NCBI GenBank assembly: GCA_004195035.1 | Contig: SGBD01000004.1 | Coordinates: forward strand, 124,001-188,000 | Direction: 5' to 3' | Length of the DNA stretch: 64,000 nt | Source of the DNA: Candidatus Acidulodesulfobacterium ferriphilum | GTDB lineage: Bacteria > SZUA-79 > Acidulodesulfobacterales > Acidulodesulfobacteraceae | Shown: positions 52,487 through 63,438 of the stretch, in pieces | How the letters are laid out: every line of letters begins with the position of its first letter | How positions within the stretch are numbered: position 1 is the first letter of the stretch | Program-made: the position numbers and the translations under genes | Notes under the pieces: model-generated | Database searches by the model: none | Told to the model about the DNA's origin: nothing | Seen by the model: only the letters and a program-made list of their open reading frames with translations

Positions 52487-52562
<76 letters not shown>

Positions 52563-52693: not shown

Positions 52694-53725
52694 ATGAGAA
52701 TTTACAGGCGCGGTAGTATCTATTGGTGCGAGTTCAGGCTTGACAATAAGCATTATCAATACTCTTGCAAGACAAAAGAAAAAGAAATAGCGCAAGAAGT
52801 AGCGTCGGCAATTTATGCGGATATGATACGGGACAGATTTAATATACCGGCGAAAAATAAGGCTCAACGTTTATTTGCCGAAACCTATCAGGAATATTTA
52901 AAAAATCTTAATAATTCAAAAGGGACTATTGAAAAGAAAAAATGGCATTATAAGCATTTTATTAAATTATTTAAAGATAAATACATTGCAGATATTGACG
53001 TTAAAAATTATCAATTAACAAGAAAGCTTGAAATACAGAACGAACCTAAGAATAAAGGCAAAAACGACAGTCAAATAACTTATGCTATTGTCAATAGCGA
53101 AATAATGACCTTATCTAATTTCTTTAATTTTTGTATTGAGAAAGGCTATATAGATAAGAACCCTGCATTTAAAATTAAGAAACTAAATGAACTATCCCGC
53201 ATTAAAACTTTATCAAACTCCGACATCGAGAAACTCATCGCAGGCGCTACAAATAAGTTGACTAAAGATTTAATTACTTTTTTAATTTATACCGGTTGCC
53301 GCAAAGGCGAGGCTCTTAACTTAAAATGGGACGACGTGGACTTGCAGAATAACGTAATAGCTATTAAAGGAACTAAAACCAAGTATGACAGGTATATTCC
53401 GATTTCAAAACCGTTAAAAGAGCTTTTAAGGCAAGTCGGAAAAAATCAGGATGGTTTATACGTATTCGAGAGGAACGGGGCTAAATTAACCGATTTTAAG
53501 CGTTCCTTTCATACGGCGTGCCGTAATGCCGGATTAAAAGATTTAAGGATCCACGACTTGCGCCACGTATTCGCAAGCAAAATGGTAATGAACGGGACGT
53601 CTTTATTTATTACAGGCGAACTGTTAGGACATAGGACTACGCAAATGACAAAGCGGTATAGCCATTTAGTCCCGGAGACGCTTAAGAAAGCGGTTGACGA
53701 TGTATTTAACAAAAAAATATTGTAA
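52694..53725 (+). CDS. Tyrosine recombinase (integrative-element integrase)
   Basis: 343 residues. N-terminal arm-binding region (1-50; RIYRRGSIYWCEFRL), a core-binding SAM-like domain (about 58-155) and a C-terminal catalytic domain with the full set: R203 (TGCRKGEAL), a beta-hairpin Lys near 228-230, H287 and R290 (HDLRHVF), H313 (LGHRT) and the nucleophile Y322 (KRYSHL). It looks active. Its stop overlaps the next ATG (TAATG), so the phosphoesterase is translationally coupled. A second copy of its last codons is found after that gene. Confidence 0.95.
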   Translation: MRIYRRGSIYWCEFRLDNKHYQYSCKTKEKEIAQEVASAIYADMIRDRFNIPAKNKAQRLFAETYQEYLKNLNNSKGTIEKKKWHYKHFIKLFKDKYIADIDVKNYQLTRKLEIQNEPKNKGKNDSQITYAIVNSEIMTLSNFFNFCIEKGYIDKNPAFKIKKLNELSRIKTLSNSDIEKLIAGATNKLTKDLITFLIYTGCRKGEALNLKWDDVDLQNNVIAIKGTKTKYDRYIPISKPLKELLRQVGKNQDGLYVFERNGAKLTDFKRSFHTACRNAGLKDLRIHDLRHVFASKMVMNGTSLFITGELLGHRTTQMTKRYSHLVPETLKKAVDDVFNKKIL

Positions 53726-54396
53726 TGCAAATACAAACTTGGTTAGCCGCAAATACATTCGTTATTTCAGACACGCATTTTGGGCACGCAAATATTATGC
53801 GGTCTGAACCGTTAAGAAGCGGCCTGGTTAATTCTGTTAAAACAGATGTTTCTAATTACGTTGATTTAACCGCGGCGGCTGACCGTAAATTGATAGATAA
53901 TTGGAATTCCGTCGTATCTGCAGACGATAATATCTTACATTTGGGCGATGCCGTCTGGGGCGGAAAAGACAAAATAACGAAATATATAAAGGAACTTAAC
54001 GGCCGGATTTATTTGATTAAAGGAAATCACGACGCCGATAATGCCGCATACAAGGAATTAGGCATTAATATTATCGAAAACATTCATTTATTTATAGACG
54101 GTTCTTACGATATAATACCCGCAAAACATAAATACGCTAACGCTATTATAACCGAAATTGACGGCAAGAGGATTATGTTTTCGCATTTTCCTGTTGTAAA
54201 TGATATCGTTGAGGATATGGAGAATTTTGCCGGGATAACCAAAGAGCTTTATGAAATTTTTAAAAATTATAACTGCAATTTAAACATACACGGACACACA
54301 CATTCGCAATCAATTAAAATAGCTTCGTTCTGCAAAAACGCTTCAATAGAAGCAATCGGGAATTTTAAACCGCACAAAATCGGCGAAATTATATAG
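53725..54396 (+). CDS. Calcineurin-like metallophosphoesterase
   Basis: 223 residues. Metal-binding motifs in order: SDTHFGHANI, LGDAVWGG, KGNHDADN, FSHFP and HGHTHSQS, i.e. a complete two-metal site. It matches phage- and element-borne phosphoesterases of the hydrolase class; the substrate could be a nucleic acid end, a cyclic nucleotide or a phosphoprotein. Its ATG overlaps the integrase stop. Its stop codon lies within the duplicated integrase tail, so the gene appears to have been placed inside an integrase 3' end. Confidence 0.88.
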   Translation: MQIQTWLAANTFVISDTHFGHANIMRSEPLRSGLVNSVKTDVSNYVDLTAAADRKLIDNWNSVVSADDNILHLGDAVWGGKDKITKYIKELNGRIYLIKGNHDADNAAYKELGINIIENIHLFIDGSYDIIPAKHKYANAIITEIDGKRIMFSHFPVVNDIVEDMENFAGITKELYEIFKNYNCNLNIHGHTHSQSIKIASFCKNASIEAIGNFKPHKIGEII

Positions 54397-56219: not shown

Positions 56220-58496
56220 TTAACTTATTTGCCTCATAAGACATCTAACGGCCTCGGTATATATTCTAAATTTTTTTCCTTTAATAATTTTATCAAATAT
56301 TTTATCTTCTTCTGTTAAATATAAAGAGTAATTAGTCTTTTTGTGATTTTCGCAAACACTATCATCAGTTGCAAATCTTTTTCCGCACCATTTAAGATAT
56401 CCTTCATAAAAGCCTTCCCCAAATTCTTTTTTAGCATATTCTTCAAAATTTGGATCTTGGCAATATGTATAATATTGATTTTCAAGACCGCTCTTAATGT
56501 TTTTAAGCTTATTATTTAGCATTTCAGATTTCAAATCAGAGATATCTATTTTTTTTTCACCTACTAAGCTTGCAAAAGTGTTTATAGAATCTATGGCTTT
56601 TTTGATTCCATCTTTTTTCTTTTTATTATTATATTTTTCTGGATTAAAAATATCTGAGTCTATTATTGCCACATAATGCAATCCAAGTTTCCCTATAAGT
56701 TTTATATAATTAACTAAACTGCCGATACCTTCTATGTTGACTATTTCGATATCGCCAATACTTACATCGTTATTAAATTTTCCTCTACCTTTGATTCTTT
56801 CAAAAAAATCATTGTTTCTAATTAAACGCTTGGCAAGTATTTCTTCTGAAAACCCTTCCACTAAGACGACGCCTTTCGCAAAAAATAACCGTTTTAATTC
56901 TTCGTATTTAAAAAGTTGGATTCGTTCAAGGTTTTCAGGCTTGAATCTGCTAATCTCTGTATTTGTATCTTTATTTCTAAAAATAAATATGTTGCCTTTT
57001 TTATCTTTTTTGTCTATTTCAACCAAATCCGGCGAATGAGTAATAATAAAAAATTGATTACCGTTCTTTTTATTATATCTATCTATTTCAAGCAAAAGTT
57101 TATGCTGCAATGTCGGATATAGATTTTGAGCTGGTTCATCCAGAATAATTACTTTATTATTATTTCCTGCTATTACAGCTGAAAGCGTCAGCATTTCATA
57201 ATATCCGGCAGGACTGAATTCAAACGAATATTCTTCTGAATCCTGACCATCCTTAAAATATAGCTGTAATTCTAATTTATGGTCTATTATGGATACATCA
57301 ACGCTATTTATATTTTGATTAATTTGTGCGTCCGTCGTCTCACTTAAACCCCAGTTCTGCGGTTTAGGCAATGGCAAAATGTTTGTACCATTTGAAAATT
57401 CTTTTATTTCAGCAACCCTTACATCAAAATTTTTACCGTTTGATAATTTTTCAAATGTTTCTTTAACTTTATTATAATCATCAAATTTATTAATTTTTAA
57501 TTGCAACAAATAAGGATAAAGATTATTAGAATCGAAATTTTGCATCTCGTTTATTTCTTTTATGGACAATATGTTTTTAGAGGGGCATCTGAAATTATCC
57601 AATGTAACTATTGAATTTTCGAAAATCCACATAAATATTGTAGAAATAGAAACCCTATTCGTCCCAATAGATAAATCTAATTGACTATCTTTTATAAAAA
57701 AATTTTCCGCATATTTTATAACCTTAGATATATTATCAATTTCTCCATCTATTTTATTATCAGTTCCAAATCGGTTAAAATTTTCCAGAAGTAAAGAGTA
57801 TTTTACGTCTTCGTTATACCATGCTCTAAAAAAATCATTATAATCAGTGTTTTTATTTAAATAACTTGCTATGTCATTTATATTTCCAATAATTTCTTCT
57901 TTTTTTCTATCTGATTGAATGGAACCAAAATTATTTTGATGATAATCGTAGCCGTTTTCAACATAGCCAGTAACAAGAAAATTATTAACAATATCTATGG
58001 CAATTTTTTCTATTTTAATTGATTTGTAAAATATTTTATGGCTTTTGCTAATATCATCATATTCTATTATTAATTTACCTTTATTAAATATTTCTTTCCA
58101 GAGATAGTTAAAAAATTTAGTAGTATTTTGAAAAGAAAGTATATAATTACTGGAATTAAACGGCTTCATTATGATGTTTATTTTAAAGAAAATTATGGCG
58201 GTAGCTAATGAAATCATTTCAATTTCTTCGCCGCTTAAAATTAAATCAATATCGGCTTCAATCTTTATTTGGCGGGAGTCTCTCTTAAGATAATTTTGTA
58301 TATTTGCAGAATATGGAAAATTATATGGCTTTAAAATAGCCATTTTGATAAACCCCATTAATTTCGTAAAGTTAGTTTTACCGGCACCATTTGGCCCCAC
58401 TACGAAATTTAAATTTTCGTTCAGGTTTACAAGTTCAATACTTTCAAAAGAAAGAAAACCGCTTGCCTTAATACTGTTAATTTTAAGTCCCGGCAT
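56220..58496 (-). CDS. OLD-family ATPase/nuclease (AAA ATPase with TOPRIM)
   Basis: 758 residues. ABC/SMC-like ATPase split by a long insert: Walker A GPNGAGKT (34-41), signature-like FSPAGYYEMLTLSA, Walker B and D-loop near 450 (VIILDEPAQNLYP) and the switch His in FFIITHSPDL. A C-terminal TOPRIM domain follows (VLVEGFSEE near 546, then IIDSD near 613), giving the acidic residues for metal-dependent nuclease activity. This is the OLD-nuclease architecture of phage defence. It is 37 bp downstream of the type III restriction gene and in the same direction, so probably one operon. Confidence 0.9.
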   Translation of the reverse strand: MPGLKINSIKASGFLSFESIELVNLNENLNFVVGPNGAGKTNFTKLMGFIKMAILKPYNFPYSANIQNYLKRDSRQIKIEADIDLILSGEEIEMISLATAIIFFKINIIMKPFNSSNYILSFQNTTKFFNYLWKEIFNKGKLIIEYDDISKSHKIFYKSIKIEKIAIDIVNNFLVTGYVENGYDYHQNNFGSIQSDRKKEEIIGNINDIASYLNKNTDYNDFFRAWYNEDVKYSLLLENFNRFGTDNKIDGEIDNISKVIKYAENFFIKDSQLDLSIGTNRVSISTIFMWIFENSIVTLDNFRCPSKNILSIKEINEMQNFDSNNLYPYLLQLKINKFDDYNKVKETFEKLSNGKNFDVRVAEIKEFSNGTNILPLPKPQNWGLSETTDAQINQNINSVDVSIIDHKLELQLYFKDGQDSEEYSFEFSPAGYYEMLTLSAVIAGNNNKVIILDEPAQNLYPTLQHKLLLEIDRYNKKNGNQFFIITHSPDLVEIDKKDKKGNIFIFRNKDTNTEISRFKPENLERIQLFKYEELKRLFFAKGVVLVEGFSEEILAKRLIRNNDFFERIKGRGKFNNDVSIGDIEIVNIEGIGSLVNYIKLIGKLGLHYVAIIDSDIFNPEKYNNKKKKDGIKKAIDSINTFASLVGEKKIDISDLKSEMLNNKLKNIKSGLENQYYTYCQDPNFEEYAKKEFGEGFYEGYLKWCGKRFATDDSVCENHKKTNYSLYLTEEDKIFDKIIKGKKFRIYTEAVRCLMRQIS

Positions 58497-58533
58497 AAAT
58501 TTTTATTTATTAATTAATTTGACAATGGGTTAA

Positions 58534-61023
58534 TTACAGATTAAAAAATTTATTAATATCAATATCCTCTTTGCCCTCTTCAACCAATTTAAAGCTAAAA
58601 TCTTCGTTTAATTTAAGTTTAATCAATTTCAAATTAATTGATCTTATTTCTTCATTATTCATTCTATCAAAAACATTTTTTTTATATTGAGTATCCAAAT
58701 TACCAAGTAAATGCTCCCCCTTGCTCTCAATTATATAAACCAGCTCTATTTGATCGTTTTTATTTTTTTTGGCGGCTATGAAATCGGGATGAATTTTGCC
58801 TTTTTTCCATCCGCTAATTGCGTACCATTTTTTATTTTCCGCAACATTGCGCACCCACCATACAACGCTTTTTTTATTATCAATCAAATTAGCAACTTTT
58901 ATTTCCAGAGGATTCATTGATAATTTATCTGATTTTTCAAAAAGATTTGATTTATATGTTTCAATGCCCTCAGGATATACTTCATATTCTTCCGGCAATA
59001 AATAACCTATATCTTGGTCATCGCAAACCGCTAATATTAATTTTTTACTCTCTATCAAAGAATTAAAAATTTTTTCTTCCTGATTAAATTTTTCAAGCGA
59101 TAATTTTTTAATAATTTCATGGGTAATAAATCCGCTATTAACTATTAACTTTTCCTCGTTCTTATATTCTTTGTATTCTTTAATAAAATCATTTGCTAAA
59201 TCAAAAGCGACGAATGCATTATCGGTTACATCAGTTATTCTGCGGGTTAAATATGAAATTTCAAATAGTCCGCTTTCTTTCTCTTCTAAATATTTTTTCT
59301 CATATTTTTTATCTATGTCAACTAAAATTTCATAAGTGGTCGGTTTTTCATCGAGTAATGGAAAAATTTCATTTTTTAGCCATTCCCCATAGTTTACTTT
59401 ACTCCAATCAATATTAGGTTTAATATCAATATGATAAGAAAACCTGCGATAGCTTTCACTATTTTTTATTATCCAAACAGGCAAATACAACGATTCTGGA
59501 TATTTTTCAAGGATTTCAGGTTTAACTTTTGTTTTGATTTTTTTGGAACCTGCAGGGCCTGATTCCCTACTAATATTTTGGATTAAATCACCCAAACCTT
59601 CATTTTCAAACCCTTTTTGAATATTTTTTAACACATCCTCCGTATCGCCTTGATTAAAATAAACGTAGCTTTCATCAAGTTCTTTGATTCCGATTTTTTT
59701 AGCATACGGTTGGCGTAAAATCCTGCCGACTAACTGAGTCATTGATGATTCTGATCTTGCGTTAGGAATTATACCCAAAATATAAGCGAAAGAACAATCC
59801 CAACCCTCTTTTAAAGCTTCTTTGGTAATAATATATCTAATTTCGCTGGATTGAGATAAAAGCTTTTCCTCTCTAATTTCGTCTATTTCACTTGATTTAA
59901 CGGCAATTTCATGGGCAGGCACGCCTTGTTCTATCAGATATTCACGTACATCTTCGCTATGAACTTTACCTTTTTCTCGCTGATCTTTGCCTGTCCTTTC
60001 CGCCTGTATAAGGGCAATAGGTCTAATATAGATGTTTCTGTTGCTATTAAGTTTGATTGCTTCTTCTTCTATTGAGTTCCTTTTTTTCATTATTTCATTA
60101 ATCATCTCATGCCAATTTCCACTAATAGAAGGCGAGTGTAAATGTAAATCAAGCTTAATCATGCCTGCTTTTTCAAGCTGCCGACCGGTAATCTCCACAA
60201 GAACATTCATATGGTTTCGTTCTTTAGGAGTGGCCGATAGTCCGATAATCATTGAAGGATTTAAGCCATCAAGTGTCTTTTTTGCTATATCAGAGAACAT
60301 AGTGTGAAATTCATCTACTATAATTAATGGATTTAATATTCTTATAGCATTTCCTAAACTTGATTTCACAATTTTATTATTGAATAGGTCATCTTGTATA
60401 AAATCCAAATTTGGAATTTTTTCAAGAAGTTTTTGGTGTTCGTCATACCTATTATCTTGAGGAAAAAAATCAATATAGCCGCCGCTATCCTGAAATACTT
60501 TCATGTTTTCTTTAGTGTTTCTGCTAGTCGATTGGAACATTAACATTAAAATCACTAAATTATCTTCGGTGTCCTGACGGCGTAAAGACTGACCTTTTTC
60601 TAAAATAATTGTCCTATTGCCGCTGCATTGATCGAGCCATTGGCGGTAAATATGATTTTTATCTTTTAACTTTTCAATTGTTTGTCTATAAATTATTTCA
60701 CGGTGGACAATCCAAACGACAAGGCCGGTTCTTTTTTTGGCAAATAGATTATGGTATTCACGGATAGCTTCAATAGCCAAAAGCGTTTTTCCCCCGCCTG
60801 TTGGAATTTTTAAGCAAAAGCGGGGGTAAGATTCGCCCAGACCATTTTTAGGCCTATCGGCAAAATGAGATAAATTGAGATTATTATAAACTGCATCAAC
60901 ATAAGATATTGAACTTCTCAGGTTAACATCCAGTTTTTCAATTGCGCTTTTTACATTTTCGGCTTCTGTATAAAATTTTTTAAGCGCTTCTACGACATCA
61001 GTTTGGTAATCTTTTAGAATCAT
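58534..61023 (-). CDS. Type III restriction enzyme, Res subunit
   Basis: ATP-dependent translocase and endonuclease of a type III R-M system. 829 residues. SF2 helicase motifs: PTGGGKT (74-80), DEFH near 236, GLSATP and motif VI QLVGRILRQP; ALKEGWDCSFAYIL is typical of Res. A C-terminal PD-(D/E)xK nuclease is visible as HPDF (near 745) and IIESKG (near 763). All key residues are intact. It starts 2 bp after the mod stop. Confidence 0.94.
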   Translation of the reverse strand: MILKDYQTDVVEALKKFYTEAENVKSAIEKLDVNLRSSISYVDAVYNNLNLSHFADRPKNGLGESYPRFCLKIPTGGGKTLLAIEAIREYHNLFAKKRTGLVVWIVHREIIYRQTIEKLKDKNHIYRQWLDQCSGNRTIILEKGQSLRRQDTEDNLVILMLMFQSTSRNTKENMKVFQDSGGYIDFFPQDNRYDEHQKLLEKIPNLDFIQDDLFNNKIVKSSLGNAIRILNPLIIVDEFHTMFSDIAKKTLDGLNPSMIIGLSATPKERNHMNVLVEITGRQLEKAGMIKLDLHLHSPSISGNWHEMINEIMKKRNSIEEEAIKLNSNRNIYIRPIALIQAERTGKDQREKGKVHSEDVREYLIEQGVPAHEIAVKSSEIDEIREEKLLSQSSEIRYIITKEALKEGWDCSFAYILGIIPNARSESSMTQLVGRILRQPYAKKIGIKELDESYVYFNQGDTEDVLKNIQKGFENEGLGDLIQNISRESGPAGSKKIKTKVKPEILEKYPESLYLPVWIIKNSESYRRFSYHIDIKPNIDWSKVNYGEWLKNEIFPLLDEKPTTYEILVDIDKKYEKKYLEEKESGLFEISYLTRRITDVTDNAFVAFDLANDFIKEYKEYKNEEKLIVNSGFITHEIIKKLSLEKFNQEEKIFNSLIESKKLILAVCDDQDIGYLLPEEYEVYPEGIETYKSNLFEKSDKLSMNPLEIKVANLIDNKKSVVWWVRNVAENKKWYAISGWKKGKIHPDFIAAKKNKNDQIELVYIIESKGEHLLGNLDTQYKKNVFDRMNNEEIRSINLKLIKLKLNEDFSFKLVEEGKEDIDINKFFNL

Positions 61024-61025
61024 AT

Positions 61026-62663
61026 TTACTTTTTCTCAAAAAGGTTATAAGGAATACTTACAAAACTAATATTAAACCTCTCCAAATACTCCTCATCTAA
61101 AAAACAAGCAGGAGCATAAACTATCTTCTTTCCATTATCTTTTTTATTGACTTCTTCCGCCCAATCAAGAGTAATAGCTAATTTTTTCAATTTCTCCGTA
61201 TCTTTTTCATATATAAGATAAACCGTTTCGCTATTTATTTTACCGACAAAATAATTTTTTTCATTAATTGATTCTTCGTTATCCATTGTTTTGCCCGCTG
61301 CCAAGTAATAAACATATTTTGCAAATTCATTATAGGTTGGTAAATCGCCATTTAAAATTGAATCCGCATCAATCTTTGGTCCGAGCCTCATATAATAAAA
61401 ACCAACTTCTAATTTATCTCTTTCTATTACTCGCTTTACACGTTCTCTGGTAATTTCGTGAACATATTTAAAACCTGCCTTGTACGCAGGCTTGTCTTCT
61501 TCAATTTTTTCCGGAAGTTGCACTAAAATAAATTTTCTATTTCCGCCATCTTCTTTATTTAATTCCAAAACTGCATGAGCTGTTGTGCCGGAACCAGCGA
61601 ATGAGTCAAGTATGATATCATTATTCCTTAATCCACTCATAGTAAATAATCTTTTTAATAATGAAGTAGGTTTTGGATGATCAAATACTTTTAGACCATC
61701 AAAAATCTCCATTAGTTCTTTAGTTCCCATGGTAGTAGAACCAACGTTATCTAAAACACTTTGGTATTTTTTAAATCTATTTTCGTTTTCATCCGGCTCA
61801 TAAATTTTTTCATATGCTTCCAATAAATTTTTATTATTAAAAGCAAAATCAATATCCCCATTTTCAATAGCTTTTATCATTTTTGATTTATCCCAACGCC
61901 AACATCCATCACTTCCATCAGGCAATCTTGGAAAAAAATCATTACCATCGGGTCCTTTTATTGGATAAAACAAATTAGGCCTATCCTCTCTTCTACTATT
62001 AGACCCCCATTTCCTTAAAAGCTGTGTTGTATAATACTTTTCCTTATTTTGGTCAAACTTCGGAAAATTTCCTCCTTCTTTTATTTGCAATCCTGCATTA
62101 AATTGACTTTTATTCTTAGCATATACTAAAATATACTCGTGTATTGTTCTGTAATAATTATCATCTTCAGCCCCACTTTTACCTTTCCAAACCAATTTGG
62201 CTATGAAATTATCCATAAAAATTTCGTCGCATATATTTCTTAAATGGTGCTCTTCATTATTATCTATACTTATAAAAATAACCCCTTCATCGTTTAAGAA
62301 CTCTCTTAATAATTTTAAACGTGGAACCATCATGCAGAGCCACTTATCATGCTTAGTTAAATCATCTTTGCCAACAATTTCACCAATCCAAGCCCTTAAA
62401 AGAGGGCTATTAACTTTATCGTTATAAACCCAGTTTTCATTGCCAGTATTATACGGCGGATCGATATAGATACATTTTATTTTCCCCTGATACTTTGGCA
62501 ACAAACTCTTAAGCGCAATTAAATTATCCGCTTCTATAATTAGGTTTTCATCCTCATTTTTTCCTTTGGCAGATAATTTTTTATCCTTTTCCAGTATTTG
62601 ATACGGGAGTGATAAATGATGATTCCAAACAGCGTTTTTTCCTTTAAAATTTATTGTCGGCAT
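61026..62663 (-). CDS. Type III DNA adenine methyltransferase, Mod subunit
   Basis: N6-adenine methyltransferase that also gives Res its sequence specificity. 545 residues. Beta-class order: motif IV DPPYNTG (68-74) first, the target-recognition region in the middle (about 150-330), then SAM motif I SFAGSGTT (near 354) and KFILVQLPE. No simple repeat tracts suggesting phase variation are present in the gene. First of the mod-res-OLD run; a membrane-protein gene ends 88 bp upstream. Confidence 0.94.
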   Translation of the reverse strand: MPTINFKGKNAVWNHHLSLPYQILEKDKKLSAKGKNEDENLIIEADNLIALKSLLPKYQGKIKCIYIDPPYNTGNENWVYNDKVNSPLLRAWIGEIVGKDDLTKHDKWLCMMVPRLKLLREFLNDEGVIFISIDNNEEHHLRNICDEIFMDNFIAKLVWKGKSGAEDDNYYRTIHEYILVYAKNKSQFNAGLQIKEGGNFPKFDQNKEKYYTTQLLRKWGSNSRREDRPNLFYPIKGPDGNDFFPRLPDGSDGCWRWDKSKMIKAIENGDIDFAFNNKNLLEAYEKIYEPDENENRFKKYQSVLDNVGSTTMGTKELMEIFDGLKVFDHPKPTSLLKRLFTMSGLRNNDIILDSFAGSGTTAHAVLELNKEDGGNRKFILVQLPEKIEEDKPAYKAGFKYVHEITRERVKRVIERDKLEVGFYYMRLGPKIDADSILNGDLPTYNEFAKYVYYLAAGKTMDNEESINEKNYFVGKINSETVYLIYEKDTEKLKKLAITLDWAEEVNKKDNGKKIVYAPACFLDEEYLERFNISFVSIPYNLFEKK

Positions 62664-62751: not shown

Positions 62752-63438
62752 TTACAAAGTTTTAAGTTTTTCAAACAAAATATTTTTAGCTTCTTCCACC
62801 TCTCTATAGCTGTTTTTTAATCTTATCGCATTTTCTCTTAATATTCTCATGTAAGTGAGTAATTCTATCCTGTCAAAATGGGTTGGTGGTGCTTTATGAT
62901 AATATTGCTCTAAAAAATATATATATTTTTTTCTATAGTCATTATTAATATCAAATAAATCCAATAATCCTTTAATCTTATTATAAGCATTTATAATTAA
63001 TCTTATAAGTTCCTTATCTGTAATTTTACCTATTAAATTCGCATTATTATTATAAATTAAAAAATATTCTTCCCTTCTTATATAGAAAAGCTCTATAAAA
63101 ATATTTTCGGGCAAAATGTTTTCTATTAATTTGTTCAATTCATCATCTTTAGGATTTTTTAATAACCTTTCAATTTCATTAGCAAAATATTTATCATCTT
63201 TAGAAATTGAATTTAATTTCATTATTGCGGATTTAACCATATCTAATTCCCAAAAGGATTCAATTTCATGATAGACTCCATTTAAAAACGAATTTATTAA
63301 TTCCTTTCTTTGTTTTTCTTCTTTTTTAGAATCATAATGGAACGATAAAAAAGCGCCTATTAGAACAAATATGCCGCCGACCATCGCCCCAATTAATGCA
63401 CTCAAAAAGCTATTCCAAAAATTACTTACTTGTTCCAT
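62752..63438 (-). CDS. Membrane-anchored helical protein of unknown function (defence island)
   Basis: 228 residues. One N-terminal transmembrane helix with a Gly-rich face (LIGAMVGGIFVLIGAFLSFH, about 14-33), then a long, mostly helical cytoplasmic part with basic and acidic patches (KKEEKQRKELINSF; YREVEEAKNILFEKL). No catalytic motif recognised. Same strand and direct neighbour of mod. Could be a defence effector, a sensor or a passenger; no evidence decides. Confidence 0.6.
   Translation of the reverse strand: MEQVSNFWNSFLSALIGAMVGGIFVLIGAFLSFHYDSKKEEKQRKELINSFLNGVYHEIESFWELDMVKSAIMKLNSISKDDKYFANEIERLLKNPKDDELNKLIENILPENIFIELFYIRREEYFLIYNNNANLIGKITDKELIRLIINAYNKIKGLLDLFDINNDYRKKYIYFLEQYYHKAPPTHFDRIELLTYMRILRENAIRLKNSYREVEEAKNILFEKLKTL

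Follow-up and report, generated by a model that had tools for sequence, protein, structure and literature searches.

Introduction

Why should a type III restriction-modification (R-M) operon end in a gene for an OLD-family ATPase and nuclease, and what might such a gene do there? The question arises from three genes, mod, res and OLD, of Candidatus Acidulodesulfobacterium ferriphilum. They lie in a stretch of 64,000 nucleotides, referred to here as the window (contig SGBD01000004.1, positions 124,001 to 188,000). The initial annotation suggested a possible composite defence in which the OLD protein either acts on the products of Res or serves as a back-up. Type III R-M systems modify an asymmetric site on one strand and require two sites for cutting. 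We describe the operon, its relatives within and outside the phylum, and the role that the OLD gene may have in it.

The mod-res-OLD operon

The mod, res and OLD genes are all on the minus strand at the coordinates first claimed for them, and they run in one direction with gaps of 2 bp and 37 bp. They are three separate intact genes, and the word "fused" in the title of the initial annotation is therefore wrong. The mod gene (61026..62663, minus strand) encodes a type III N6-adenine methyltransferase of 545 aa (PADLOC MTase_III PDLC03644, 1e-132 over residues 1-541; Pfam N6_N4_Mtase, 3e-34). Its motifs, DPPYNTG at residues 68-74 and then FAGSGTT at 355-361, stand in the beta-class order, with DPPY before FxGxG. 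The res gene (58534..61023, minus strand) adjoins mod across the 2-bp gap and encodes a type III restriction subunit of 829 aa that combines an SF2 helicase with a C-terminal PD-(D/E)xK-like nuclease (PADLOC REase_III PDLC03653, 8e-137; Pfam ResIII, 6e-17). The helicase motifs PTGGGKT (74-80), DEFH and SAT are present, and a nuclease-like PD...ESK is found at 746-768. The operon thus has what marks a type III system, namely a beta-class N6-adenine methyltransferase gene next to a Res with SF2 helicase motifs and a PD-(D/E)xK nuclease. This R-M core is presumably ordinary: Mod would modify DNA, and a Mod-Res complex would travel along DNA and cut it where it is unmodified. A further gene 88 bp upstream of mod (62752..63438, minus strand) encodes a protein of 228 aa whose N-terminus appears to include a membrane segment; no family was found for it, and the operon may begin with this gene. 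Small proteins that seem to have a membrane segment at the N-terminus recur beside R-M operons, at 62752-63438 of the window, L043:7734-8510 and L050:3475-4005.

The OLD gene (56220..58496, minus strand) encodes a protein of 758 aa with the two halves that define its family, an N-terminal ABC ATPase and a C-terminal TOPRIM nuclease with E and DxD residues (Pfam AAA_21, 7.5e-12, and OLD-like_TOPRIM, 2e-11, both above the gathering scores). Walker A (34-41), Walker B (D453/E454), H487 and the TOPRIM residues E547 and D613xD615 are invariant across a seven-member OLD alignment. Together with a motif check of Mod and Res, this bears out the early claim that the key motifs of all three proteins are intact. 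A single OLD match was found in the genome, and the gene is hence its sole copy. Among OLD orthologues dN is 0.21-0.32 and dS, which is near saturation, is about 1-1.4; from these values the gene looks to be under purifying selection. The 37-bp gap between res and OLD (58497..58533, minus strand) is A+T-rich and has no Shine-Dalgarno-like site, unlike the type I-linked OLD orthologues described below, which have GAGG ahead of the start. The absent site was considered as an oddity and dropped, since 9 of 45 genes of the window are without one as well. A scan for promoters and terminators performed at chance level, and no terminator was seen between mod, res and OLD; from the spacing of the genes we infer that they form an operon and are probably co-transcribed.

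The operon is cargo of an integrative island

The operon is carried by a 15.9-kb integrative element whose ends are a 49-bp perfect direct repeat of the 3' end of tRNA-Val(gac). The tRNA gene lies at 52487-52562, and its 3' 49 bp (52514..52562, plus strand) form attL. The perfect repeat that closes the island is found beyond the window, at extended positions 68390-68438 (contig C4 192390-192438). A tyrosine integrase gene (52694..53725, plus strand; Pfam Phage_integrase, 4e-28) adjoins the tRNA gene, and its stop is overlapped by a gene for a calcineurin-like phosphoesterase (53725..54396, plus strand; Pfam Metallophos, 2e-10). Besides these two proteins and OLD, Res and Mod, the island encodes the 228-aa protein, a RepB-primase-like protein and a PIN protein. 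It is this island that would have delivered the OLD cassette to its present site.

The same tRNA-Val site is an integration hotspot in sister genomes. In G002 it is occupied by an island of 10.9 kb without R-M genes, in G008 by one of 17.6 kb that includes a Mod-like gene, and in G011 by one of 15.5 kb with the order hsdR-hsdM-hsdS-AIPR-OLD; no second repeat was seen near the site in G016 and G013. Varied cargo was found at the hotspot across the phylum (L160, L161, L162, L164, L166 and L167), with a different hsd-AIPR-OLD island in L162. In most hotspot genomes, conserved FAD-oxidoreductase and DsrE-like genes adjoin the tRNA-Val site. One hotspot locus (L161:5326-9741) has a Mod-like gene of 611 aa and an 858-aa gene without an assigned family, possibly a further type of R-M system.

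OLD genes recur in R-M operons of the phylum

A search for OLD-TOPRIM domains in the home phylum, sampled as 30 genomes of one family, returned ten loci including the window. Nine of the ten lie in an R-M operon, as against none of 20 random 18-kb control regions (Fisher p 7e-7); counted by lineage, the OLD is with R-M in four of five, against 0/20 controls (p 4e-4). The sole home-phylum OLD locus outside an R-M operon is a Gabija locus, L049. A second mod-res-OLD operon, followed by DUF2971, is present in L040 and is strongly diverged from that of the window (Mod 37%, Res about 30% and OLD 25% identical). In L046, L047 and L048 the OLD gene comes first and is followed by mod, with res visible in L047. 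The OLD gene follows hsdR in L007 and L006, while L044 and L045 are type I loci with AIPR and OLD. The initial annotation had proposed a survey for a conserved mod-res-OLD order and would have given up its reading had the arrangement occurred only here. L040, a locus of the home phylum, shows that it does not, and with the OLD-mod(-res) loci and the R-M-touching OLD clade described below it confirms that the linkage recurs.

The linkage is not specific to type III systems. The nearest OLD orthologues, 56-67% identical, are those of L007 (G023), L008 (G007, cut by a contig end) and L006 (G016), and in L009 (G003) the orthologue has decayed to a remnant beside an hsdR that is still intact. In L007, L008 and L009 the OLD gene lies about 38-45 bp behind a type I hsdR, and the contig of L006 starts inside the 3' end of the same hsdR. 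The domains of these HsdR partners (HSDR_N, T1R_D3-like and EcoR124_C) are those of type IC enzymes. Locus L041 is the hsd locus of L007 without OLD: it matches as far as the hsdR end plus 46 bp and resumes just past the OLD stop. The flanks of the two are 89-95% identical, with 95% identity past the OLD gene, and they differ by exactly the OLD gene. The OLD gene is therefore a precise presence/absence unit that the R-M core apparently does not need. A composite peculiar to type III, as first suggested, does not fit orthologues behind type IC hsdR genes, nearest Res relatives that lack OLD and an hsd locus that occurs with and without it.

These loci bear on the proposal that the OLD protein acts on Res products, as an exonuclease or nickase that completes restriction by breaking down the DNA which Res or HsdR has cut or stalled. 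In its favour, OLD proteins have been described as nickases or as exonucleases of 5'-3' polarity (PMC10568477), and the R-M partners seen here belong to the ATP-dependent types I and III. The genome already has AddAB-like nucleases of the RecB family, however, and the OLD gene changes its partner and its position, which makes product processing less likely. Sister hsd loci moreover retain intact genes without OLD, and OLD proteins coupled elsewhere to RT-msDNA, UvrD or BREX work without restriction ends. We regard product processing as unlikely.

A clade of long OLD proteins that switches partners

In a tree of 54 OLD proteins, built from a quick search and with several other long-branched rows, the long OLDs of 720-785 aa (window, L006, L007, L040, L046 and L047) group as a single clade (SH-aLRT 98), apart from the Gabija OLDs. 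A smaller tree that includes L008 nests the OLD of the window among type I-linked OLDs, and in 95% of its bootstraps the R-M type must have changed twice or more. A conflict between the OLD and HsdR trees was considered as well and was dropped: OLD is more diverged than HsdR, yet the branching is compatible. Judged from these sequences, the OLD gene is an optional, portable cassette common to the type I and type III R-M operons of the phylum.

A portable cassette need not interact with its neighbours. It is quite possible, though we would not expect it, that the OLD gene is an independent passenger, a stand-alone defence gene resembling class 1, for which R-M operons are merely good sites of landing and expression. 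R-M operons without OLD are common and the presence of OLD is optional; the partner type and the gene order vary, with OLD first in L046-L048 and last elsewhere; and the tRNA-Val hotspot that carries the operon here carries a different hsd, AIPR and OLD island in G011. Against this, every member of the long-OLD clade with a visible context touches a mod, res or hsdR gene despite great divergence, and a free passenger would be expected elsewhere too. Nor does the gene have the setting by which class 1 is defined, a single gene away from defence genes, as both it and its relatives sit in R-M operons.

Searches outside the phylum

Outside the phylum, 52 OLD loci could be assigned, and at seven of them R-M genes lie no more than 5 kb away on the same strand; four of these seven are Gabija systems. 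The broader idea of a preference for R-M operons among all OLDs was rejected, as 7/52 against 0/20 controls gives p 0.18 at this sample size. In L065, L056, L075 and L073, which belong to unrelated genomes, Gabija pairs of OLD and a UvrD-like gene lie directly beside hsdM/hsdS/hsdR or mod. The long-OLD clade was not found outside this phylum in profile searches of 386 and 388 genomes, in which at most two candidates per genome were scored. A peptide-pattern scan of genome contigs, with narrow patterns, recovered the three MAG orthologues already known and no others. Tblastn of plasmids with three OLDs gave weak Synechocystis matches or none, and no close OLD relative, while scans of viral contigs with OLD and Res and a phage tblastn gave no related match. 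No OLD was found near the closest Res relatives elsewhere, at 12 genome loci and 8 plasmid loci. Other ATPase genes accompany some of these: in the type III system of L128:4114-10458, genes for an AAA_21 ATPase and DUF4276 separate mod from res, and a Chryseobacterium oryzae plasmid (L138:1720-8514) carries a co-directional row of an HTH gene, an AAA_13 ATPase gene (PADLOC PDC-S06), mod and res. ABC-ATPase genes thus appear to recur at differing positions in the operons of these Res relatives.

Relation to known OLD systems

The OLD protein was modelled with AlphaFold2 from a seven-sequence alignment; the model is of moderate quality (pLDDT 66, pTM 0.62) and was therefore used for the fold class alone. 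Foldseek against the PDB aligned almost the entire chain with the effector OLDs GajA, Retron-Eco8 OLD and TsOLD, and a profile search with OLD returned TsOLD and the Eco8 OLD. These matches support an OLD fold for the modelled protein, not an assignment to a class. Likeness of fold and profile to GajA, the Eco8 OLD and AriA could mean that a retron, Gabija or PARIS system went unrecognised and stands beside the type III genes by chance. This is very improbable, given that no UvrD helicase, reverse transcriptase, Rfam ncRNA or separate TOPRIM gene was assigned within the island and that the Gabija OLDs sit on other branches of the OLD tree.

GajA, a class 2 OLD, shares the OLD fold and the E and DxD residues of TOPRIM and is among the best Foldseek matches; the OLD of the window differs from it in its longer Walker A-B stretch, its separate branch and the absence of a UvrD-like GajB helicase gene beside it. 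The class 3 OLD of Retron-Eco8 is similar in length (750 aa) and fold, and as an effector it is held by its partner complex. Here there is no RT or msDNA, no RT ORF was assigned and a tRNA is the sole Rfam match, so that the setting is not that of a retron I-B; the partner would instead be the R-M system. PARIS, in which AriA is an OLD-ABC ATPase and AriB a TOPRIM protein (class 4), likewise pairs an OLD ATPase with a TOPRIM nuclease, and as a guardian it responds to the anti-restriction protein Ocr. Our case has both domains in one 758-aa chain encoded in an R-M operon, with no separate ariA and ariB. Published OLD classes 1 to 5 include no R-M-operon class (PMC10568477, PMC12796447). The statement of the initial annotation that OLD nucleases act alone or with a UvrD-like helicase is incomplete: retrons and PARIS are missing from it, as are the OLD/TOPRIM back-up effectors published for BREX.

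Among accessory genes of R-M loci, the nearest parallels are PrrC in EcoprrI and RloC, which are ABC-ATPase genes in R-M operons that are optional to restriction. EcoprrI is a type IC R-M system with PrrC (PMC12707154, PMC3506569), and the sister hsd loci here are type IC too (EcoR124_C). Unlike PrrC, a HEPN-fold tRNA anticodon nuclease, OLD has a TOPRIM nuclease, lies behind hsdR or res, and occurs with type III as well. Toxin-like genes of type I and III R-M loci are similarly described as exchangeable suicide genes, of HEPN, Sir2, ParB or REase kinds; that account does not mention OLD/TOPRIM (PMC3506569). In BREX and BREX-related systems, OLD-ABC/TOPRIM genes embedded in restriction-like operons have been proposed as suicide back-up effectors (PMC12839542). 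Those cases differ from ours, where the partners are classical type III and type I R-M systems and one OLD clade is exchanged between both. Back-up effectors of the OLD/TOPRIM kind in restriction-like operons are hence already known; the specific long-OLD clade is found only in this phylum. A survey of ABC ATPases was reportedly made by Krishnan et al. in 2020. PMC12839542 says that an ABC-ATPase survey describes OLD with RM-like systems, and this, together with the published BREX-linked effectors, limits the novelty of our finding.

A possible guardian of restriction

The second half of the initial proposal, that OLD is a back-up when restriction fails, is plausible. We tentatively favour it, at slightly under an even chance: OLD may be a guardian effector in the manner of PrrC or PARIS, called into action by the inhibition of restriction, and not a processor of Res products. 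Its gene has what a guardian would be expected to have, being an accessory ATPase gene within an R-M operon that appears dispensable, as hsd genes are present without it. Partner exchange, optional presence, variable order and a conserved active site argue for an accessory effector over a subunit of the type III enzyme. The ATPase half of OLD would keep the TOPRIM nuclease silent as long as restriction is intact. Once a phage blocks restriction or alters the state of the DNA, the TOPRIM nuclease would be released to cut nucleic acid, either DNA or tRNA, and the infection would be aborted. Counting against a guardian, the clustering with R-M genes may be mere hitchhiking in defence islands; the rate of 7/52 outside the phylum, the restriction of the clade to one phylum and the remnant beside an intact hsdR in L009 weaken the case.

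Taken as a whole, the locus suggests a swappable back-up defence module on a mobile island. That the long OLDs make up a distinct class of interchangeable guardians of types I and III, which abort infection on sensing a state common to both types, for instance an R subunit that is blocked or bound by a DNA mimic, is a bolder idea that we consider rather doubtful. If OLD does act as a guardian, PrrC and PARIS would be joined by single-chain OLD nucleases in sensing that restriction has failed, and the signal that these nucleases sense is predicted to be common to type I and type III enzymes.
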